A stretch of 27,379 nt of DNA from a virus. Each line of letters begins with the position of its first letter. The stretch's first letter is position 1. Both the position numbers and the translations under genes were made by a program. This document shows positions 1 to 22,986 of this stretch, in pieces. The notes below the pieces were generated by a model. The model was not told the origin of the DNA and did no database searches. It saw only the letters and a program-made list of their open reading frames with translations. Where the stretch lies: the IMG/VR virus record IMGVR_UViG_3300000353_000007, positions 1-27,379 of that record; one strand, given 5' to 3'.

Positions 1-10
1 GGGATATTTT

Positions 11-19
11 TTTAAATAC
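11..19 (-). promoter_or_regulatory. Weak promoter-like element for a gene beyond the left edge
   Basis: In the minus-strand sense this reads GTATTTAAA, a partial match to the (G/C)TATTTAT(A/G) element found before most operon heads in the window. It lies just after the stop of the 31-540 gene, so it would drive a gene lying left of the window. No start codon for such a gene is visible in the 30 bases available. Confidence 0.3.
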
Positions 20-30
20 TGCTAATCTTT

Positions 31-540
31 TCATTTTAAACAATCGTATTTCATATTATTAACATCTTCTACTTCTTCACAATATTCACTAAATAACCAA
101 GTTGGTATGGTATAAAAACTCATTAATTTTACTGATTTATCTTCTTGTTTAACAGGATAATTAACCATATGTAGAAATTTTGTAGGTTTATCAGGAAATA
201 ATGATGTATGACCTTCTTCAATACATCTTTTTATCTCTGATGTCTTTATTAAATATCCTTTAATATTATCAGTAATTAACCAATAATCAGCAGTCGTTGT
301 TAAAATACCTGATTCATTATCATTACAATGAGTTTCAATACAAATATTTTGGGTTTCTTCTGCTTTTTCATCACATTTACATTCAATAGTTATTCCGTTT
401 TCAATGGTAAAATCAAAAAATTTTAAATTCGAATATAATTCATTTTTTGTACATTTAAGACCTATTTTATCATAAATGTCTTTCATTCTATTATTTTCAA
501 AATCCTCACCAATTTTAAGAGATTCTTCCCATGATGCCAT
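31..540 (-). CDS. PD-(D/E)XK nuclease-like phage protein
   Basis: This 169-residue protein carries an arrangement typical of the PD-(D/E)XK nuclease fold: an acidic N-terminal helix (E12-D13-F14-E15), D43 in the strand FFDFT, then E53-x-K55 in TIECK ten residues later, followed by ICIET and TADYWLI. Those residues would bind the metal and cut DNA. The motif is seen in the sequence; the exact family and substrate are not. It is the last gene of the run that starts with the endonuclease at 4403 and lies 42 nt after the 2H phosphoesterase. It could act as a resolvase-like or recombination nuclease, or degrade host DNA. There is no signal peptide or membrane segment, so it should be cytoplasmic. 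Confidence 0.6.
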   Translation of the reverse strand: MASWEESLKIGEDFENNRMKDIYDKIGLKCTKNELYSNLKFFDFTIENGITIECKCDEKAEETQNICIETHCNDNESGILTTTADYWLITDNIKGYLIKTSEIKRCIEEGHTSLFPDKPTKFLHMVNYPVKQEDKSVKLMSFYTIPTWLFSEYCEEVEDVNNMKYDCLK

Positions 541-582
541 AATTTTTCATTTTTAAATTTTCAGTTATTTTTAATTTCAATA

Positions 583-978
583 TTATTTAGTTACTTCTTC
601 AACATAACCTGTTAATTCGAATGAAAAACCAATTTTTCTCCAATCAGTTAGTTTATTTGATAAATATGGTTTCCCACCATTGGCTCGATTAACGGCAATT
701 GTTATATGTGGTTTTTCATTAGTACTTGAGTATCCTTTAACACCAACAGCCATTACTTTATCATCCATTGCATAATCAACTACATTTAAATGAATTTTTT
801 TACCTTCTTCCATATCCTGTTTTTCTTGACAACCGTCTTCAAGACCACCTAATTTTATTGTCATATGATGTGCAATTACCTCATAATTTGATGGGATTAA
901 ATACCAAAAAACCTTAATCAATTTTTTTCTTGATTCTTCATCTAACACAACTGCTGAATATGAAACATTTTTATTCAT
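583..978 (-). CDS. 2H phosphoesterase (ligT/CPDase-like)
   Basis: This 131-residue protein has the two H-x-T signatures that define the 2H phosphoesterase superfamily: H38-M-T40-I and H91-I-T93-I, about 53 residues apart, each followed by a hydrophobic strand. Known members open 2',3'-cyclic phosphates on RNA or hydrolyse 2'-5' and cyclic oligonucleotides; the phage anti-CBASS protein Acb1 belongs to the same superfamily. The length is short but sufficient for a single 2H domain. The gene starts 8 nt after the GIY-YIG gene, with the CCA-type nucleotidyltransferase one gene further upstream, so an RNA end-processing role is plausible. Family membership is fairly secure; substrate and cellular role are inference. 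Confidence 0.75.
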   Translation of the reverse strand: MNKNVSYSAVVLDEESRKKLIKVFWYLIPSNYEVIAHHMTIKLGGLEDGCQEKQDMEEGKKIHLNVVDYAMDDKVMAVGVKGYSSTNEKPHITIAVNRANGGKPYLSNKLTDWRKIGFSFELTGYVEEVTK

Positions 979-986
979 AATTAAAT

Positions 987-1637
987 TTATTTAAATTCCC
1001 AATAATAACCACCAGCCGATTTTCGTTTTCTATTACATACTTCACTAATATGCAAAATTTTTGTTTTCTCATATGCCTCTTTACCTGATGTAAATATATT
1101 AATTAAATTATTATTCATGTCTATTTGCATTACTAATTTAGATAATTTTTCTGATGTTATTGGTTTTTTTAAACCAGTTAATGATTTAGACATTTTATCT
1201 TTATGTGATTGGGTTAATTTTTTTCCAAACATGGGGTTTAATTTTCCTTCTCTTAAACATCCTTTTCCATACATAGGATTTCCAGACCCACATCTTCTTT
1301 TTTTAGATTTTTCAGACCAATTAGTGCCATATCTTGATTTACCAACAACACAAATATTATATCCATACTTTCTATTTGTTGTATTATATTGATTTATATG
1401 ATGTTCCTCCAGTTTTAATAATTTTTCACTTGAAATATTATTAAATGATTCAATTATTTTAAAAGTAAATTTATCATCACCATATTTATTCCAAGCATTT
1501 TGTAATATTGGATTTTCATACTTATTTCTTTTAAGTAAATAAATGTGTGATTTAAATCTATATTTAAAAGATTTTAAAGTACTACCAATATATACTTTAT
1601 TATTAATATTGTTCACTATTTGATAAATACCAATCAT
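987..1637 (-). CDS. GIY-YIG homing endonuclease with NUMOD motifs
   Basis: This 216-residue free-standing endonuclease has the full GIY-YIG catalytic module in residues 1-95: GIY at 3-5, YIG at 16-18, R27, a catalytic-type Glu in LEEHH (77-78) and N94. Two NUMOD3-type repeats follow (GSGNPMYGK near 117-125 and GKLNPMFGKK near 131-140) and then a NUMOD1-like C-terminal DNA-binding segment ending in AGGYYWEFK. Such enzymes nick or cut a DNA site and spread their own gene. It sits between the nucleotidyltransferase (2 nt upstream) and the 2H phosphoesterase (8 nt downstream), interrupting what may once have been an adjacent pair. An AGG sits 8-10 nt before the ATG, inside the preceding reading frame. 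Confidence 0.92.
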   Translation of the reverse strand: MIGIYQIVNNINNKVYIGSTLKSFKYRFKSHIYLLKRNKYENPILQNAWNKYGDDKFTFKIIESFNNISSEKLLKLEEHHINQYNTTNRKYGYNICVVGKSRYGTNWSEKSKKRRCGSGNPMYGKGCLREGKLNPMFGKKLTQSHKDKMSKSLTGLKKPITSEKLSKLVMQIDMNNNLINIFTSGKEAYEKTKILHISEVCNRKRKSAGGYYWEFK

Positions 1638-1639
1638 TT

Positions 1640-3466
1640 TTAACCTGTTGAATCTATAAAACTAATTTCTTTTACTGTTATTTTATCTGGTGTCGGATGT
1701 GATTTTGAACGTGCTCGGTGAGAATAAACAAAAAAACCATCTTTATCTGCTCCCAAACTAACACCATTTGATTTATTTGATTTTTCTATTAATTCTTTTG
1801 GTTTTATTAAACCTGTTACTCTACCACCTTCATGATATTTTGAACTACTCGTTAAATATTTCAATATCTGTTCTTTCATTTCATTATTAATTGATTTCGA
1901 TTTCATTAATGATTTTTTTGCATTTTCATACTTAGATTTTTCCTCATTAATATGATAATTAATTTCATTTATAATTATCAATTTCGATTTATCTTCTCTC
2001 AATAAATCTCTATCAGTTAACGCCCAATACAATTTCTTATTTAGATTTTCATCGGTAGAATAATCCTCATAGTTATTTTGAAGAAACTCTAATACACTTG
2101 CTCTTGAAGGATGTTCATAACCACCACCTTGATTATTCCATTTATCATATTCTTTTACAAAGAAATCAATACTTACTAATTTATTATTAATTTTCCATGT
2201 TTCTACTGGTTCATGATAATTCCCATAACCGTCTTCAACAATATTATTTTTCTTTGAAACCAAAGATAGCAATTCTTCTTTATTATTCCTAACTTTATCA
2301 GCATAAATCTGAATTAACATAGATTTTTGCATGTCACCAATTTCTTTTCCACTTAAACCAGCATTCATTAAATCATTACCATTAACAGCTAATTCATTTA
2401 TTGTCTTGGGATATTTTCCATGTAATAGTTCTTGTGCTGCAATTTTAATTTGTTGTGGTATTATTTGACTTTCGAGTGTTTGAGGTGCTATTTTATACAT
2501 GTTATGTGCAATTGACCTTGCTTTCACATTATCCATTTGTTGGTCAACTAAATCAGAATTAAATGCTAAATCCAATGCTTGTAATTCTTTATAAATTTTA
2601 TCTCTTTTTGCATCTTCAGTACTAAATCTACTTAAATAAAATTCACTTGGGTTTTGAACAACACCATTCATCATTAAAAACAATAATTCTGCCATTGTTC
2701 TAACATTTTCAAAATCTCTTCTATCTATTTGTGAAGGATTGATTTCATTACCAAATATTTGTTTAAATAAACCCGTATTTGATAATAATTCAACACCGAT
2801 ACGAGCATTACCTTTATTAACTATTTTATCTAACTCAATTAATATTCTTTCAGGTGCAATTTCACTAATTTTATCGGCATTATCGATAATCATTTGCATT
2901 GTCTTAGGTTCAATAGAAAAACCAAAACGACTTGCAAAATTTATCATTCTTAACATTCTTAATGGGTCATCACTAAATGTATTTGGATTTGCTGCTGATA
3001 TTTGTTTATTTTCAATATCATCGAGTCCATTTAATGGGTCAATAAATTTACCAGTATTAAGGTTAATTGCCATTGCATTCATTTTTGCATCCCTTCTAAT
3101 AAGGTCATCTTCAATTGGTAAATTTTCATCACTTTGAATATCAAATCCTTTATGTCCTCCTTCACCAGTAGGTTTATCTTTACGAGGTAATGCAATATCA
3201 TAATCAATACCATCATTATCAACGAATTTAATTACACCAAATGACTCACCAACAACATCAACTTTACCAAATTTTTGTAAATGATTAATTAATAAATTAA
3301 TTGGAATATTTCGGACAATTAAATCGATATCTTTATTTGGTTTATTAAGAATTAAATCTCTCGTTGCTCCCCCGACCACATAAATTTCCGATTTTAATTC
3401 ATTAATAAGTGATTGAACGAATGGTTTTTGTCTTAAATTTGATATAAAGTCTAGTATTTTACTCAT
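1640..3466 (-). CDS. CCA-adding enzyme / poly(A) polymerase family nucleotidyltransferase with long C-terminal extension
   Basis: This is a 608-residue protein. The N-terminal ~240 residues match the bacterial class II CCA-adding/poly(A) polymerase head: GGATRD at 32-37, the metal-binding D46-x-D48 in DIDLIV, RRDAKMNAMAI at 124-134 and DDPLRMLR at 166-173. A late motif, GNDLMNAGLSGKEIG, near 363-377 resembles the conserved C-terminal part of cellular enzymes. The expected activity is adding nucleotides to RNA 3' ends, most likely CCA to tRNA. Beyond residue ~390 lie about 220 further residues not expected in housekeeping CCA enzymes, ending in a Gly/basic tail (GADKDGFFVYSHRARS at 572-587). 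An ATG ten codons upstream would overlap the preceding gene, so I prefer the start at 3466, 1 nt after that gene's TAG. Confidence 0.88.
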   Translation of the reverse strand: MSKILDFISNLRQKPFVQSLINELKSEIYVVGGATRDLILNKPNKDIDLIVRNIPINLLINHLQKFGKVDVVGESFGVIKFVDNDGIDYDIALPRKDKPTGEGGHKGFDIQSDENLPIEDDLIRRDAKMNAMAINLNTGKFIDPLNGLDDIENKQISAANPNTFSDDPLRMLRMINFASRFGFSIEPKTMQMIIDNADKISEIAPERILIELDKIVNKGNARIGVELLSNTGLFKQIFGNEINPSQIDRRDFENVRTMAELLFLMMNGVVQNPSEFYLSRFSTEDAKRDKIYKELQALDLAFNSDLVDQQMDNVKARSIAHNMYKIAPQTLESQIIPQQIKIAAQELLHGKYPKTINELAVNGNDLMNAGLSGKEIGDMQKSMLIQIYADKVRNNKEELLSLVSKKNNIVEDGYGNYHEPVETWKINNKLVSIDFFVKEYDKWNNQGGGYEHPSRASVLEFLQNNYEDYSTDENLNKKLYWALTDRDLLREDKSKLIIINEINYHINEEKSKYENAKKSLMKSKSINNEMKEQILKYLTSSSKYHEGGRVTGLIKPKELIEKSNKSNGVSLGADKDGFFVYSHRARSKSHPTPDKITVKEISFIDSTG

Positions 3467-3467
3467 T

Positions 3468-4403
3468 CTAATTATTTTTATATGATAATTCTTCAATATA
3501 TTTTAAATTTTCACCTAATAAGAATCTATATTCATAATGATTCTCTTTACAATATTCAATTCCAACAGATGCTTTTAAAATGTCATTTTTTTTAATCCAA
3601 CCTTTAACTTCTTCAATAATTATTTTATTATTATCGACAATTTTAAAGTCTGGAACATAATATGTTTTTAATCCCTTCTCATTAACATATGGAATTCGAA
3701 TTCCATGTTTTTTTGTCCAAATAATATTATTATCATCAAAAAATTTCATTCTTATTTCTTCATATGAAGAATCAAACCATTCAATAGTTCCATTTTTTTG
3801 TATATAATTACCACATTTCCAATTATTTTTTAATTTTATTTTTCCATTAGATAAATTTTCACAATATGTTTTTATTCGTTTTTCTAACAATTCTTTATCA
3901 TCCCATCTATTTTTTAAAACTTTAATAGTATTTTCATATCCAACTTTCATTCTATTAACTCTTGCTTTTTCAACATATTTAATATTATGCATTGGATTAT
4001 TTTCTGATATTTTTTTTCTTACATCGTCTCGTTTTGCAGGATTATCTTCTCCATATTTTCTATTTTTTATTTTAAACAATGGATTATTTTTTTTCCACTT
4101 AATTGACTGTTCTTCTCTTCTTTCTAATGTCCATCCTTTACTATAATTTAATAACTGTTTTTCGGTTCTTTTTACACCAATTGCACCATGTCCTAAAATT
4201 CGTTTATTACCAACCAAAGTAATTTCCCCGCATCCACATTCACATTTTTTATCCCACGAATTAATAAAATTATTTCTATATTTTTCATGTTTAGTATTAC
4301 AAATATTACAATTTCTTAAATGTTTATGCCATTGTCTATTATTAAAATTAATTCCGCAATATGAAATTAATGGTAATTTAATTATTCTGAACTTTTCTCT
4401 CAT
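3468..4403 (-). CDS. PD-(D/E)XK homing-type endonuclease with NUMOD3 and zinc-binding motifs
   Basis: This 311-residue protein begins with Cys/His clusters (C32-N-I-C35 and C54-E-C-G-C58 followed by GHG at 71-73) that look like a zinc-binding DNA-recognition region. NUMOD3-type repeats follow (GEDNPAKR near 118-125, SENNPMHN near 133-140). The C-terminal ~100 residues hold a PD-(D/E)XK catalytic set: E215 in SSYEEIRMKFF, PDF at 251-253 and E265-V-K267. This layout is known for mobile phage endonucleases. The gene has a promoter-like element at 4414-4422, and its TAG stop lies 1 nt before the start of the nucleotidyltransferase. It therefore appears to have inserted precisely at the head of that operon. 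Confidence 0.8.
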   Translation of the reverse strand: MREKFRIIKLPLISYCGINFNNRQWHKHLRNCNICNTKHEKYRNNFINSWDKKCECGCGEITLVGNKRILGHGAIGVKRTEKQLLNYSKGWTLERREEQSIKWKKNNPLFKIKNRKYGEDNPAKRDDVRKKISENNPMHNIKYVEKARVNRMKVGYENTIKVLKNRWDDKELLEKRIKTYCENLSNGKIKLKNNWKCGNYIQKNGTIEWFDSSYEEIRMKFFDDNNIIWTKKHGIRIPYVNEKGLKTYYVPDFKIVDNNKIIIEEVKGWIKKNDILKASVGIEYCKENHYEYRFLLGENLKYIEELSYKNN

Positions 4404-4413
4404 AGTATTATTT

Positions 4414-4422
4414 TATAAATAC
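4414..4422 (-). promoter_or_regulatory. Promoter-like element GTATTTATA
   Basis: In the coding sense this reads GTATTTATA, ending 10 nt before the ATG at 4403. It is one of about ten copies of this element placed before operon heads. A second, weaker copy (ATATTTATA) lies at 4453-4461. Confidence 0.55.
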
Positions 4423-4476
4423 TGAAAGAAAACAATAAAACACCACCAACACTATAAATATGTTAACTTAAATTAA

Positions 4477-5019
4477 TTACATCATCTTTCTTGCTTCATC
4501 AATATTTTTTTTAATAATTTCTCCTTCATCAATATTAGGTACAAGACTACTAAAATATTCTTGAAGTTCCAAATTATTTTCGATTTCTTCTTTAATTGAT
4601 TTTAAAATCAGGTTATTAATATCGCCTTGATTACATGCAGTACTAGTATTACCTTCACCTCCAAGACGACATTTCTTTTTTACCTCAACTTCTTTTGAAC
4701 CACTCCCAAATGATTTATCTCTAACTTCATTAATAATATCCTTATTTTTCAAATAATTGTGTATTAAATTAAAAACATGATTAAATTTATCAAAACCCAT
4801 ATATTCTCTATACTTATTTCTATTATAATTCATTGATAATAATAGAAATTTCATATCATTTAAATCATCGTTACTTAGATATTTTTTATTTTCTATTTGA
4901 TTTAAAAACATATTAATATTTTTAATATATTCCAAAATCTCAGTATTATCAATTCTTTGATAATCTTCTTTACTTAAATTAATATTAGATTCATCTAAAT
5001 TTTGTTTATTATTTACCAT
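4477..5019 (-). CDS. Unknown phage protein with conserved CRLGG-GNTS-CNQGD segment
   Basis: This 180-residue protein is mostly helical and rich in Asn, Lys and Glu. Near residues 114-136 is a distinctive basic/Gly segment, KKKCRLGGEGNTSTACNQGD, with two cysteines 12 residues apart. I do not recognise a function. The chosen ATG at 5019 overlaps the end of the kinase-like gene by 11 nt, suggesting translational coupling; an in-frame TTG at 5025 is less likely. There is no signal peptide or membrane segment. The 73 nt after its stop contain no clear terminator. Confidence 0.75.
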   Translation of the reverse strand: MVNNKQNLDESNINLSKEDYQRIDNTEILEYIKNINMFLNQIENKKYLSNDDLNDMKFLLLSMNYNRNKYREYMGFDKFNHVFNLIHNYLKNKDIINEVRDKSFGSGSKEVEVKKKCRLGGEGNTSTACNQGDINNLILKSIKEEIENNLELQEYFSSLVPNIDEGEIIKKNIDEARKMM

Positions 5020-6937
5020 AACCAATCATTTCCATTATGTGTTTAAAAATTAAATCTTCATACTCACTCAACATATATTCATCATCAGCAGCATCTCCAT
5101 CAACATGATTATATTCTAAATCTTCTTTATACATTGTAATATTAGCATCTAAATTGTTATTAATACTAGGTGAACTATCATAAGTATTATATGCTGGAAA
5201 TTCATCTTGATTAATTGCAGTATCACTACTAAATTTAGAACTGCCGTCTTCAGGTAAAGTAATAATATTATTGTCTTTAAAATCTGGTTCTTGTACTCCA
5301 CGATAACCACCAGTATCAAAAAATTTAAGTACATCATTCTTATATCCTAAATTCTGATTTTCAATATAATCAACAGATTTTATTTGGAAATCAAGTAATT
5401 CTTTACGCATTTCAATCATCTGAACTAAAAACTCATAGGCTTCTTGTCTTTCTTGAGGATTAACATCAGCATCTGGATTATCAGTTAATACCTTTTTAGC
5501 AAATTCAAGCATTTGTTTATAATCAAATCTTTTTGGTTTTTTCATTGAAAACATAATATCGACATAACTCATGCCATCAGGACTTATTTTAGTTATATCA
5601 TTTTGCATTTTTCTAAACTTTTCAACTGGTTTATAATTAACGTTTTCTTGTAAAATAGCAAAATACGCTTTATCGGTTTCTGTATCATGAACCTTATATA
5701 AGTTAAAGATTTTTGCGATATGTTTTGGGTTACCTCTTATTAATTTAGATGCAGCATCTGCCTCACTAACATCTGAAGTTAATTTAAGCACTAAATTATC
5801 ATTAATTTCATAAGCAAATCCATTTGCACCACCACCAAGATATCGTGGTTGAGTTAAATCTAACTTAACAGCTACTTCTTTGGCAAGTTCATTAGCATTG
5901 TTTTTATCATCTAATGAATATTGCTCTACATCAGGAATTTCTTCATTTATAACATACTCTTCTTTTAATAATGGTTCTCTGTTATAATAACCTTGTTCAA
6001 TCAAATAATTTTGTAGTTCAAGTAAGTTATTGTAAAACTGTTGTTTATTATCAACAATTTCAAGTATACCTTTAATATTATTTACGCATTCATTAAATCC
6101 ATCAGCAAGTTTTCCAATACTTTCAACTGGCTTATTAGGATATTTACTCCTATTTTTTACAAATTTAACAAATTTTTCATTGATAAGTCCTTCACCATCA
6201 CTAACACTATAAGGCATTTGTGCCCACATTCCACGTCTTATAACACCAGTATCACCAATATTATTAAGAATATCATCATTACCATCAGCATAATTGAATA
6301 ATTCATACATTTGGTATTTTTTCTTTCTATCAGGACTATAATGTGTGTTAAAAACTTCATCATTTAAACCGTAGTCGGTTAAAACAATTGTAGGTTGACC
6401 ATCACGAAGTACTTCACCATAAGTACTTGGTCTTCCCATATCACCAACTTCTTGATTATAATTTGCTACAAAATCGGCTAAATCTGTAGAAAATTCATTT
6501 TCCCAGAAAAATTCTTCCATTTCTTTATCCTGACCAAAAATTTTTCTCCGACCATTATTTTGTTCTTTAAAATTTCTTAGGAAATAAAACAAATCATTAA
6601 GACTTGGGATACCAGTAAGTTCTTTGATTCTATTTTTAGTTACTTTCTTAGCTAATTCAGAAACCAGCCATGTATAATTATCATCATAATCAAAAACCTC
6701 AGTAACTATACTTTGCGAATAATAATCTGAAGCATTTGCTTCGGCTTCATTTTGTGCAACACCTTTAGCATTTTTAGCTAATTTAAGTGCTTTTTCACCA
6801 TCGATATTATATACTATTCTTCCCGAACCACTACCTATTCTTTCTAGATTATCATTAGCAAATCTTATTCTGCCTGCATAAGACTTAATATTAAGAAATT
6901 CTGGAAGGAAACTTTGTTTAAATTCTTCATATGTCAT
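5009..6937 (-). CDS. Tandem protein-kinase-like protein, probably degenerate
   Basis: This 642-residue protein contains two segments resembling kinase N-lobes. The first has a glycine loop GSGSGRIVY (35-43), a lysine in ALKLAK (K52), a helix-C-like Glu (NEAEA, 63-67) and a DYG reminiscent of DFG (188-190), but no clear HRD loop. The second has LGGGANGFAYEI (367-378), a lysine in LVLKLT (K385), a following Glu (392) and then SVDYIENQNLG with FFDTGG (521-544), which resembles a catalytic loop followed by a metal-binding Asp. The C-terminal ~90 residues are acidic and low-complexity. This is seen at motif level only; activity is uncertain. It heads its operon, with a promoter-like element at 6957-6965, and could be an effector or structural pseudokinase. 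Confidence 0.55.
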   Translation of the reverse strand: MTYEEFKQSFLPEFLNIKSYAGRIRFANDNLERIGSGSGRIVYNIDGEKALKLAKNAKGVAQNEAEANASDYYSQSIVTEVFDYDDNYTWLVSELAKKVTKNRIKELTGIPSLNDLFYFLRNFKEQNNGRRKIFGQDKEMEEFFWENEFSTDLADFVANYNQEVGDMGRPSTYGEVLRDGQPTIVLTDYGLNDEVFNTHYSPDRKKKYQMYELFNYADGNDDILNNIGDTGVIRRGMWAQMPYSVSDGEGLINEKFVKFVKNRSKYPNKPVESIGKLADGFNECVNNIKGILEIVDNKQQFYNNLLELQNYLIEQGYYNREPLLKEEYVINEEIPDVEQYSLDDKNNANELAKEVAVKLDLTQPRYLGGGANGFAYEINDNLVLKLTSDVSEADAASKLIRGNPKHIAKIFNLYKVHDTETDKAYFAILQENVNYKPVEKFRKMQNDITKISPDGMSYVDIMFSMKKPKRFDYKQMLEFAKKVLTDNPDADVNPQERQEAYEFLVQMIEMRKELLDFQIKSVDYIENQNLGYKNDVLKFFDTGGYRGVQEPDFKDNNIITLPEDGSSKFSSDTAINQDEFPAYNTYDSSPSINNNLDANITMYKEDLEYNHVDGDAADDEYMLSEYEDLIFKHIMEMIGYGK

Positions 6938-6956
6938 ATTACGAATATTTTATATT

Positions 6957-6965
6957 CATAAATAC
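6957..6965 (-). promoter_or_regulatory. Promoter-like element GTATTTATG
   Basis: In the coding sense this reads GTATTTATG, ending 19 nt before the ATG at 6937 and just after the terminator at 6981-7009. The tract that follows (AATATAAAATATT) closely matches that after the plus-strand copy at 16398-16406. Confidence 0.6.
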
Positions 6966-6980
6966 ATATGAAACTATAAA

Positions 6981-7009
6981 AAAAAGCACAATTAAGATTG
7001 TGCTTTTTT
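6981..7009 (-). terminator. Rho-independent terminator of the 6992-7714 gene
   Basis: An inverted repeat aaaaagcacaat / attgtgctttttt with a 4-nt loop gives a stem of about 12 bp with a GCACAAT core and a T-run on the minus strand. The TAA stop of the 6992-7714 gene lies inside the stem, an economical arrangement. The A/T-rich flanks would let it work in both directions. Confidence 0.85.
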
Positions 7010-7746: not shown

Positions 7747-8682
7747 CTATTTTTTGAAAAAAGTCGTTTTTTTGTAAGGAATAGATGGAATATTTTTTTC
7801 ATCAATGCTTTGTTCTTTTGAACTTAAATCAGTTAATGTTTTATTTCGCACATCATCATAAAATTTTTTATCAGGTTGAGTATTTTTCTTAACTAGACTA
7901 TCTATTAAGTATGGTAATGAACCAACAATTGCTGTATCTGGAACATCATGTTTTTCCTTATCTTTCACATTTATTAATTGAAAATCACCTTTATCATTAA
8001 TAGTAACTAAATAACTACCCTGTGATTTTTTTGAAACACGACTAGCAATATCTCGTAATTTTATTACATCATTAGCAGTTATTTGCTTACTATTTTTATT
8101 TCCTCTTCTTATACTATCCCAATATTCTTTATCTCTATCAGCTTTTGGAACGACATCGATTTTTTGTTCTTTATCATATTTATAATCAAAATCGGGTTGT
8201 TTTTTTGTTGAAACATAAGCAATTATGTTTGTCATATCATCATCACCACCTTCATGATACCCAGCAGGTATCATTGGCAATCCATTTGAATCATTAAATT
8301 TTTTACCAATAGGATAGATTTTTGATATTTTATCTACTCTAAACATTCTCCAACCCGGTTTACTGCCTTCTTGGTCAGTCCAATAATCATGATATAAACT
8401 ATCATCCCTTGTTGCCTTATTTTGAAAATGCCAACTATTTTTTGGATTGTCTTGCCAAGCTCTTAACATTAAATTTCCATCGGCATTTTTACCAAGCACA
8501 TATGGTCTTACCGTTCTATAACCACTAGCATTTTTTCCTTCTTCATTATCTGCATTATAATAAAGATAAATCCATTCATGATTATTGATTGCATCCACAA
8601 TAGTACTTGCTCCAACTCCTTCAGTAATGAGTTGACGAAAGTTTTTTATGTTTTCAATTAATATTTTTAGCTCGTTTTCCAT
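7747..8682 (-). CDS. WYL-domain protein
   Basis: This is a 311-residue protein. Residues ~27-127 resemble the WYL domain: a helix (IVDAINNHEW), strand IYLYYNAD, then GYRTVRPYVLG (54-64), a strand LMLRAW (71-76), and GWRMFRVDKISKIYPIG (110-126) as the closing Arg-bearing strand. WYL domains bind nucleotide or nucleic-acid ligands and are common in regulators of phage and defence genes. No helix-turn-helix is seen before it, unlike typical WYL transcription factors. The C-terminal 180 residues are unassigned and Lys/Asp-rich. Its ATG overlaps the TAA of the upstream 93-residue gene by one base (TAATG), so the two are coupled. Confidence 0.68.
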   Translation of the reverse strand: MENELKILIENIKNFRQLITEGVGASTIVDAINNHEWIYLYYNADNEEGKNASGYRTVRPYVLGKNADGNLMLRAWQDNPKNSWHFQNKATRDDSLYHDYWTDQEGSKPGWRMFRVDKISKIYPIGKKFNDSNGLPMIPAGYHEGGDDDMTNIIAYVSTKKQPDFDYKYDKEQKIDVVPKADRDKEYWDSIRRGNKNSKQITANDVIKLRDIASRVSKKSQGSYLVTINDKGDFQLINVKDKEKHDVPDTAIVGSLPYLIDSLVKKNTQPDKKFYDDVRNKTLTDLSSKEQSIDEKNIPSIPYKKTTFFKK

Positions 8683-9005: not shown

Positions 9006-9770
9006 TTATTCGTATTTTTTAAATACTAATGTAATATATTCTATTAAATGTGGTACAGTATCAAGATAATCCATTTCATTTATATCATACCATCCATAAT
9101 TACTATTTTCATCATCTAATTTTATATCTGTTGGTTCACCACTATATCTACATGCAAATACATGTTCAATACTATCTGAATGTCTTTGAATAGTAAAAGA
9201 TTTAATAAATTTTTTTATTTCCAATCCCGTTTCTTCTAGTATTTCTCTTTCACATGCCTTTTTTGGATTCTCACCTTTCTCAATTCCACCACCAACAAGA
9301 CTCCATTTATTTGGCATCCAAGGAGATTTATCTCCACGTTTTAATAACAATATTTTATTATCATTATTCATGATGACAGCAACAGCATTTTTATCTTTTT
9401 CTTTTTTTTTATTCTCGTTAAGACTTAGATTGGCTTGATGAGGCATCATATCTTGATTAGAAAAATTATTAGGTATGTCTTGTCTGACTTCTTTCCCTGT
9501 TTTAACTGCATTTCTATCTTGATTTAATGTTTTTTCAATAAATGCTTTCATATCTTGTCCTCCTGCAAGTTCAAACTGAGTATTATCCATATTATTAAAA
9601 TCATGCAATATTCTTTTCATTGCTTGATAGGTTAAATAACCATTTTTAACCATGAATTTAGCTCGTTTAACACCTTCTCCAGTTGGATTCGATACCAAGG
9701 CTGCCTGAATACGTTTTAATACATTAGAAGGTATTTTATATGTCTTATTATAGAGTTCTTGATTAGCCAT
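9006..9770 (-). CDS. Nudix hydrolase fused to a phage-specific N-terminal domain
   Basis: This 254-residue protein has an exact Nudix box (G-x5-E-x7-R-E-U-x-E-E-x-G-U) at residues 161-183, read as GGIEKGENPKKACEREILEE followed by TGL. It lies within a typical alpha/beta fold from AVAVIM (129) to the end. Nudix enzymes cleave nucleoside diphosphates linked to another group. The first ~120 residues (IPSNVLKRIQAAL, NPTGEGVKRAKFMVKNGYLTY, QFELAGGQDMKAFIEKTL) are a separate helical domain, joined by a Lys/Asn linker, and I cannot assign it. The ATG overlaps the upstream stop by 8 nt. AGGAAAG before the start is one of the few Shine-Dalgarno-like sites here. Confidence 0.9.
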   Translation of the reverse strand: MANQELYNKTYKIPSNVLKRIQAALVSNPTGEGVKRAKFMVKNGYLTYQAMKRILHDFNNMDNTQFELAGGQDMKAFIEKTLNQDRNAVKTGKEVRQDIPNNFSNQDMMPHQANLSLNENKKKEKDKNAVAVIMNNDNKILLLKRGDKSPWMPNKWSLVGGGIEKGENPKKACEREILEETGLEIKKFIKSFTIQRHSDSIEHVFACRYSGEPTDIKLDDENSNYGWYDINEMDYLDTVPHLIEYITLVFKKYE

Positions 9771-16417: not shown

Positions 16418-17068
16418 ATGAAATCAGGTATATACAAAATTAAAAATACCATTAACGGTAAAATCTACATTGGAAGTTCAAAAAATATCAAATTAAGATG
16501 GCAACAACACAAATATGCATTAAACCACAATAAACATCACAACATACATTTAAATAATGCTTGGAATAAATACGGGTCAGATAATTTTAAATTTATAATT
16601 ATTGAATATGTTGAACCAACTATGATGCTGGAACGGGAACAATTTTATGTTAAACAATATAATTGTAATAATCATGATAATGGATATAATGTAAGATTAA
16701 TTTGTGAAAGTAATTTAGGATGGAAAGCATCTAAAGAAACAAAAAAAAGAATGAGTGAAAGTGCAAAAAATAAACCACCTATATCTGAAGAAACTAGAAA
16801 TAAAATGAGAGAAAATAATATTGGAAATAAAAAAGCATGTCGTGTTGTAAGTGATAAAGAAAGAAGAAAAAATTCAGAATCCAAAATTGGTATTAATCGT
16901 GGCGAAAAAAATGGAAAAGCTATTACTAACAAAAATATCATAATTAATATGAGAAAAGATTATGACAATGGCATGTCAATATCAAAAATAATGATTAAAT
17001 ATAAGAAAAAATATACATTTACATACCAAATAGTAAAAAGATTAAGATGGGCATGGTTAGATATATAA
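16418..17068 (+). CDS. GIY-YIG homing endonuclease (only plus-strand gene)
   Basis: This 216-residue endonuclease has GIY at 4-6, YIG at 17-19, R27, a catalytic-type Glu in MLEREQF (E72) and N91. A NUMOD3-like helical stretch (SKETKKRMSESAKNKPP, near 105-121, and SEETRNKMRENN) follows, then a C-terminal helix-turn-helix-like segment (GMSISKIMIKYKKKYTFTYQ, about 185-204) for site recognition. The gene lies opposite to all its neighbours, between the start of the helicase gene and the 3' end of the 17070-17456 gene, with only 1 nt between the two convergent stops. It is a mobile gene inserted at an operon boundary. Confidence 0.92.
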   Translation: MKSGIYKIKNTINGKIYIGSSKNIKLRWQQHKYALNHNKHHNIHLNNAWNKYGSDNFKFIIIEYVEPTMMLEREQFYVKQYNCNNHDNGYNVRLICESNLGWKASKETKKRMSESAKNKPPISEETRNKMRENNIGNKKACRVVSDKERRKNSESKIGINRGEKNGKAITNKNIIINMRKDYDNGMSISKIMIKYKKKYTFTYQIVKRLRWAWLDI

Positions 17069-22140: not shown

Positions 22141-22986
22141 TTATATGTTATTTGTATTTGTGTTAATAAAATCCGTTATATCTTTAAATAAATCGTTTTC
22201 GATTTTCTTAACAAATTCTTCATCATATATAGTTAAATCTCTTGGATTTGGTGGTAATATTTTACCTTCTTTTATTTTATGTAATGAATTTGGTGCATAT
22301 CCATGATGAATATCTCGTTCATATATACTTTGTTTGATATTATTTAAGTCATGTTGAAAATATTCAATTCCTAATTGATAATATAATCTTTTCATTGTTG
22401 GTTCGGGATAATTTAATAAATCATTAAACGGAACTAATATTAACCTATCGTATTCTTTTCGATATAGTATTTCTCTTAAATATGTTAATGGTAATCCCAT
22501 TAAACCATCATCAGATAACATTACTTCAGCACGTCCAACAGTAGTTAATTCCTGTGTTTTTGTTGGCATTTTAATTACAGATGATTTTCTCCCACTTTTT
22601 TCCATTGATATTAAACAATCAATAATATGTCTTATTGGGTAAATAAATTTAACTTTTGTATTAAAAATTTCATCTAGTAAATCAAAGTTCCCTACCCATG
22701 CTCTATTTTTATCAATAGGAATTATATTTTTTTTTAATTCTTCTTGATAAAAACCTTCAAATATGCCTTTCATCATTAATTTTATTTTATCATAAATATA
22801 TTGTTCATCATTTGCCAAATAATTTTCATTACTTTTCCAAGAGTCTTTAATATTAATAATTGATGTGATTAATCCCGAAGTAGCTGTTCCATGAAACAAT
22901 GGATTTTGGTTCAAGATATTCATTAATAAAGTACTTCCTGCTCTAGGAAATCCTGCCATAAAAAAAATATTCTGTTGATTATTCAT
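22141..22986 (-). CDS. PAPS-dependent sulfotransferase
   Basis: This 281-residue protein has the 5'-phosphosulfate loop AGFPRAGSTLLMNIL (11-25) followed by FHGTATSGL. The 3'-phosphate motif appears as FIYPIRHIIDCLISMEKSGR (114-133), in which Arg119 and Ser127 match the conserved R-x7-S spacing. It should transfer sulfate from PAPS to a sugar hydroxyl or tyrosine. It follows the 850-residue fibre gene after an intrinsic terminator and has its own promoter-like element at 23007-23015. The next genes are an endonuclease and a glycosyltransferase, so sulfation and glycosylation of one target (a fibre protein or host surface glycan) is a fair inference. Confidence 0.85.
   Translation of the reverse strand: MNNQQNIFFMAGFPRAGSTLLMNILNQNPLFHGTATSGLITSIINIKDSWKSNENYLANDEQYIYDKIKLMMKGIFEGFYQEELKKNIIPIDKNRAWVGNFDLLDEIFNTKVKFIYPIRHIIDCLISMEKSGRKSSVIKMPTKTQELTTVGRAEVMLSDDGLMGLPLTYLREILYRKEYDRLILVPFNDLLNYPEPTMKRLYYQLGIEYFQHDLNNIKQSIYERDIHHGYAPNSLHKIKEGKILPPNPRDLTIYDEEFVKKIENDLFKDITDFINTNTNNI

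Follow-up and report, generated by a model that had tools for sequence, protein, structure and literature searches.

The window, that is, the whole stretch of 27,379 nucleotides of the IMG/VR virus record IMGVR_UViG_3300000353_000007 that was analysed, carries on its minus strand a gene for a CCA-type tRNA nucleotidyltransferase (1640..3466, 608 aa), a gene for a GIY-YIG homing endonuclease with NUMOD3 repeats (987..1637, 216 aa), which lies just upstream of the 2H sequence, and a gene for a 2H phosphoesterase of the CNPase/tRNA-ligase-CPD type (583..978, 131 aa). The spacing is tight, with 2 nt between the CCA and endonuclease genes and 8 nt between the latter and the 2H gene. An earlier note on this DNA had located the CCA and 2H genes at these places, and the domain identities that it gave them were upheld by Pfam and PHROGs.

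The next gene after 2H is a conserved ORF of 169 aa (31..540, minus strand) to which no function is assigned. In the related locus L003, its 75% identical homologue lies directly after the gene in which CCA and 2H are fused (see below) and is followed by a gene for an RNA-repair phosphatase of the HAD 'Swiss Army Knife' type (HAD_SAK). A further gene, starting with MKRLAVF, overlaps the 169-aa ORF by an ATGA, and the window ends there (1..34, minus strand). This start resembles those of the HAD_SAK genes of L003 (MKRLAVY, in a gene that matches HAD_SAK_1) and L005 (MKRLAVF), each of which is preceded by one intervening gene, as in the window. Judging from the seven codons before the window end, the edge gene is thus probably a HAD_SAK gene.

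Upstream of the CCA gene, a putative endonuclease (3468..4403, minus strand; phrog_15427 'endonuclease', 4e-9) sits between it and two pieces of what is a polyprotein in the relatives; in L002, L003 and L026 other ORFs are found at that place. By homology to L002-L005, these pieces correspond to the linker part (4477..5025, 182 aa) and the N-terminal part (5009..6937, 642 aa, kinase-like by eye) of the polyprotein, both on the minus strand. Elsewhere in the window there are another gene for a GIY-YIG endonuclease, from the family of the one at 987..1637 (16418-17068, plus strand), a NUDIX domain protein (9006-9770, minus strand, 6e-21), a protein with a sulfotransferase-like P-loop start, FPRAGSTLL, recognized by eye (22141-22986, minus strand), and a sub-threshold WYL-like match (7747-8682, minus strand). 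No DNA-level relatives of the window were found in cultured phages.

The CCA-type nucleotidyltransferase

The product of 1640-3466 matches PolyA_pol (PF01743, 3e-21), PolyA_pol_RNAbd (PF12627, 3e-16) and phrog_2244 'tRNA nucleotidyltransferase' (1e-56), and its nearest solved relative is the CCA-adding enzyme of Bacillus (Geobacillus) stearothermophilus, 1miv. The motifs of class II CCA enzymes (GG..RD, D-x-D, RRD and [E/D]DxxR) are present, with D46, D48, R124-R125-D126, D167 and R170 conserved. Its head motifs, together with the RNA-binding domain, identify the predicted protein as a class II CCA-adding nucleotidyltransferase. No HD family match was observed in this ORF with Pfam. Likewise, the CCA enzymes of the window group lack HD, whereas the CCA enzyme near the 2H gene of L059 (1004-2824) has, by eye, an HD-like region. 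In L167 (1863-8250), a 353-aa ORF apparently divides the CCA gene into two.

The catalytic core occupies residues 1-410 (2237..3466), as delimited by alignments to 1miv and to the relatives and by a model of the L003 fusion protein, whose core is 79% identical to that of the window. In this model (pLDDT 83.4), residues 4-407 match 1miv (Z 29.4, 373 residues) and residues 499-622 match CNPase; the order, CCA and then 2H, is clear, and with a pTM of 0.58 the relative placement of the domains is not defined by the model. The ORF exceeds the length of a CCA enzyme by a small extra domain common to the fused relatives (residues 411-497, 1976..2236) and by a C-terminal tail (residues 518-608, 1643..1915) that resembles phrog_3666 (E 3e-9) and is absent at this place from L002 and L003. 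Homology to these two loci ends near the end of the extra domain. Read-through into an intron was considered as the source of the tail; this idea was given up on the ground that the CCA polyproteins of L005 and L023 also end in this tail, as a conserved domain.

The 2H phosphoesterase

The 131-aa protein encoded at 583-978 matches Pfam tRNA_lig_CPD (PF08302) with an E of 7e-6 and 26.1 bits, the cut-off being 23 and several of the relatives scoring under it, and matches phrog_36523 (E 5e-11). Both H-x-T motifs are present, H38-M-T40 (859..867) and H91-I-T93 (700..708): H38, T40 and H91 are invariant among 56 homologues and T93 is conserved in at least 90% of them. In L002 (5998-6384), H-I-I stands in place of the second motif; its 2H may therefore lack activity, which may have been lost in some members of the family.

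As a PDB sequence search with the protein or with profiles gave no credible match, the fold was searched instead. An AlphaFold2 model of the window 2H (mean pLDDT 96.5) was most similar by VIA-align to CNPase (Z 13.5, 127 residues, 2.1 A), followed by the RNA kinase-CPD chain of fungal tRNA ligase, 6u05 (Z 11.1), a phosphodiesterase of phage BCSR5 (7.9), Acb1 (7t26, 7.2) and LigT (6.8). The earlier note had named Acb1, LigT and the CPD of tRNA ligases as the structures for comparison, and what emerged was a CPD-type 2H fold with CNPase on top, Acb1 being level with other 2H enzymes. Consequently, the predicted protein has the fold and motifs of the 2H superfamily, and by profile it belongs to the CNPase/tRNA-ligase CPD branch.

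In bacterial genomes two weak relatives, and no others, were found, and weak protein-level relatives of this 2H exist in cultured phages (Atu_ph07, crAss-like and other Bacteroides phages); in the annotated ones (Atu_ph07, Kolpuevirus and DAC19), no annotated repair gene lies beside 2H. A contig labelled as coming from a Prochlorococcus single-cell genome also holds a 2H relative (L087, 5578-6378), and the neighbouring proteins are, by eye, unlike those of Prochlorococcus. Neither the 2H nor the CCA protein matches a known defence protein in PADLOC.

CCA and 2H as one ORF in the closest relatives

Six relatives of the window 2H were found in IMG/VR. In the two closest phages, L002 and L003, CCA and 2H form one ORF (623 and 622 aa, respectively), in which 2H homology begins at most a few codons after CCA homology ends. 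These proteins are about 76% identical to the window in 2H and 75-77% in CCA, up to window residue 492-497. Compared with them, the window is longer by about 1 kb, located precisely at the linker between the two domains; this additional DNA is made up of the GIY-YIG gene and the sequence for the phrog_3666 tail. The position of the junction was taken from protein alignments; a global DNA alignment misaligned the endonuclease and was set aside. The earlier note was right in placing a homing endonuclease gene between the two enzymes. Rather than merely separating independent genes, this endonuclease marks the point at which a single gene, fused in the closest relatives, has apparently come apart.

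Judging from the sequences, the split could have originated in either of two ways. The tail and the endonuclease could have entered a fused gene, or a form with a terminal tail could have gained the endonuclease; in L023, which lacks the endonuclease, the CCA polyprotein ends in the tail and is followed, after 21 nt, by a separate 2H gene. A tree of the 2H domain pairs the window with L002 (100/86) and joins L003 to these two next (100/98), within a clade of eight rows (99/95) in which every row except the window is a fusion. As the window is nested inside a supported fusion clade, the tree, which is that of one short domain, favours entry of the tail and the endonuclease into a fused gene.

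The endonuclease itself (GIY-YIG domain PF01541, 7e-9, with NUMOD3) appears to be free-standing and outside a self-splicing intron. A group I or group II intron between the CCA and 2H genes was considered and rejected, as no intron of either group or other known RNA was matched in Rfam in positions 1-7000 at E up to 1. Relatives of this endonuclease lie directly before 2H in L028 and, in a broken form, in L024 and L025, and within the kinase-side ORF in L069, L070 and L073, where they separate a polynucleotide kinase (PNK) from 2H. Because the family recurs at the 5′ edge of 2H in both the CCA and the kinase settings, its target is suggested to be in or near the 2H sequence. The gene would spread by cutting alleles that lack the endonuclease, as is indirectly supported by the repeated presence of its relatives at the 2H boundary of other phages.

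Conserved partners of the 2H domain

A profile search with the 2H domain yielded 80 loci, from which, after near-copies were removed and the window was added, 56 distinct 2H domains were obtained. CCA is encoded in the same ORF in 16 cases and nearby in 15 (overlapping or within 25 nt in 8 of these), so that 31/56 are found with CCA. The CCA enzyme of L059 was entered as nearby despite its HD-like region. In 17/56 the partner is PNK and/or the RNA ligase Rnl1 (PNK in the same ORF 15, kinase nearby 1, Rnl1 nearby 1), and the remaining 8 were classed as other. In the reverse search, based on CCA similarity alone, 68 distinct CCA loci were found, with 2H in the same ORF in 25 and nearby in 31; of the 12 that lack 2H, at least 3 break off at a contig end. 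These group counts rest on local iterated HMMs and on filtering at 90% identity, and some contigs may be cut short; the association is far beyond chance. The earlier note would have abandoned the pairing had the two genes never occurred together in relatives; the opposite was found, with 56/68 CCA loci having both.

The HAD_SAK phosphatase accompanies the pair, being present in 53/56 of the CCA loci with 2H versus 2/12 of those without it. In L031 (6001-8085) and L032 (567-3662), a single ORF includes 2H, CCA and HAD_SAK. The surroundings of the CCA-2H genes yielded no ligase gene; consequently, the repair of breaks in the middle of a tRNA would depend on a ligase from another locus. In L055 (4784-8481), the CCA gene is followed, after 3 nt, by an 827-aa ORF that encodes 2H and matches RNA_ligase below threshold.

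In the second setting of the domain (L006, L037, L043 and many others), a protein of about 310 aa combines an AAA_33 kinase with the same 2H at its C terminus, and most of the loci with this PNK-2H fusion have a gene for an Rnl1 RNA ligase. In L006, L037, L043, L046, L057 and others, the Rnl1-type gene, at times together with an Rnl2-like one, is no more than a few kb away. By sequence, PNK-2H with a separate ligase gene would be the phage counterpart of the kinase-CPD plus ligase set of Trl1.

A proposed role in RNA 3′-end healing

We think it probable that the two genes are the parts of a split CCA/2H fusion whose task is the healing of RNA 3′ ends, tRNAs being the most likely substrates. 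In the proposed pathway, a metal-independent host ribonuclease would cut the tRNA at or near its acceptor end, leaving a 2′,3′-cyclic phosphate. The 2H enzyme would open the ring, probably to a 2′-phosphate, which is the product of CNPase and of the CPD domains of fungal tRNA ligases; plant tRNA-ligase CPD would be a further model for this step. The HAD_SAK phosphatase encoded just downstream would then remove the phosphate to leave a free 3′-OH, and the CCA enzyme would restore the missing 3′ nucleotides. With the GIY-YIG gene and the tail domain at the linker, the one gene of the relatives would be two in the window, and the proteins could act in trans. Sequence comparison and prediction show what the domains are, that they are fused in relatives and have a phosphatase gene as a conserved neighbour, and that the split is derived according to the 2H tree; we infer each of the enzymatic steps, the tRNA substrate, the triggering by host defences and the working of the split halves. 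More speculatively, one polypeptide with cyclic phosphodiesterase, phosphatase and CCA-adding domains, such as that of L031 and L032, may heal the whole RNA 3′ end, sometimes delivered as part of a polyvalent protein, and homing endonucleases may repeatedly break the gene at the edge of 2H with its function kept; we hold this wider scheme to be doubtful.

The fusion could mean shared delivery and not a shared substrate, because the giant proteins of the relatives also hold unrelated domains. According to this explanation, which we regard as possible and on balance unlikely, CCA and 2H would be independent host-takeover domains of a polyvalent protein, a described class (PMC5512222), fused for delivery and acting on separate substrates. 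Indeed, both are found in ORFs of 1300-2128 aa in L004, L005, L018, L035 and L039, accompanied in some by ART-PolyVal, GNAT, SAM (S-adenosylmethionine) lyase or a second, LigT-like 2H. In the window, where the domains are in separate ORFs, this gathering of several effectors in one polypeptide is not seen. Furthermore, the combination of CCA with 2H, and mostly with HAD_SAK, persists in loci that lack the giant protein or have it in pieces (L031, L038 and L048), which suggests a shared pathway.

Other explanations concern 2H itself. For the 2H domains of polyvalent proteins, Iyer and colleagues in 2017 proposed roles as RNases or in degrading nucleotide signals such as 2′-5′ oligonucleotides, these versions never having been seen with RNA ligases (PMC5512222). 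That the window 2H is such an RNase or 2′-5′ oligonucleotide phosphodiesterase seems very improbable to us, since window-type domains are fused to PNK and lie near Rnl1 ligases. The association with RNA ligases thus exists for the window type, and the authors may have meant another version, as several of the giant relatives also carry the second, LigT-like 2H. The earlier note had also envisaged an anti-CBASS function. In that case, an Acb1-like 2H would degrade cyclic oligonucleotide signals, its proximity to CCA being incidental. Acb1 belongs to the same superfamily and appears in the fold list, and the separate LigT-like 2H of some relatives has sub-threshold matches to the Acb1 profile. 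However, the window protein does not match that profile (PF23474) at E up to 1, its similarity to Acb1 (Z 7.2) is well below that to CNPase and 6u05 (13.5 and 11.1), and its conserved neighbours are RNA-repair genes, so we consider this function very improbable as well. Of the joint role put forward in that note, the anti-CBASS arm therefore found no support, while repair of tRNA or other RNA ends gained from the CCA-2H association, the HAD_SAK gene downstream, the PNK fusion with Rnl1 and the CNPase/CPD-like fold. Most likely, the pair would mend tRNA 3′ ends damaged by host defences rather than block a signalling defence.

If RNA 3′-end healing is indeed the role of the pair, these phages would have a compact enzyme for healing 3′ ends that differs from the kinase and ligase route taken by T4. 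Its target would be tRNAs in which damage has left a cyclic phosphate on the acceptor end or close to it. Some bacterial defences would then be predicted to hit the acceptor end, with effects reversible by rebuilding it. A 2H version of polyvalent-type proteins, for which an RNase or nucleotide-signal role was proposed in 2017 (PMC5512222), would also be placed in the context of RNA repair, and the locus would be a natural experiment in the splitting of domains by homing endonucleases.

Comparison with known systems

Phage genes split by the insertion of a homing endonuclease with their function kept have been described, such as Aeh1 nrdA/mobE and T4 gene 60/mobA (PMC2988022). As in those cases, insertion makes two coding regions from one; by contrast, the split in the window is at the linker between catalytic domains, not in a critical region, and a tail domain accompanies the endonuclease. 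The relatives, giant multi-domain ORFs with ART-PolyVal and 2H, resemble the polyvalent proteins, in the description of which 'CCA' has no occurrence (PMC5512222), whereas the version of the window is in separate genes.

The 2H protein shares with CNPase and the healing module of Trl1 a CPD-type fold (Z 11-13.5) and the tRNA_lig_CPD match, and a sister group of phage loci has the PNK-CPD fusion of the latter. A relationship has been described between CNPase and the PNK/CPDase enzymes by which yeast and lancelet heal tRNA (PMC5434554). At 131 aa, the window protein is shorter than the CNPase domain (about 205-220 residues), and the partners in its group are a CCA nucleotidyltransferase and a HAD phosphatase rather than a kinase and a ligase.

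A nucleotidyltransferase joined to a phosphodiesterase able to clean 3′ ends is also found in E. coli Cca, where 2′,3′-cyclic phosphodiesterase activity resides in the HD domain of the CCA-adding enzyme. In the window, no HD domain was found in CCA and the phosphodiesterase has the unrelated 2H fold, so that its pairing with CCA would be convergent. The RNA-repair functions of jumbo phages include the same classes, CCA-adding enzymes, 2H phosphoesterases and HAD_SAK phosphatases, with the same proposed purpose (PMC7824862); there, they are listed as separate functions, whereas in the relatives of the window they are fused. Our literature search found no paper describing CCA-2H or 2H-CCA-HAD_SAK fusions, an earlier description being possible. 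Compared with these systems, the parts are known, their conserved combination is unusual, and RNA 3′-end healing is the best-supported reading of it.
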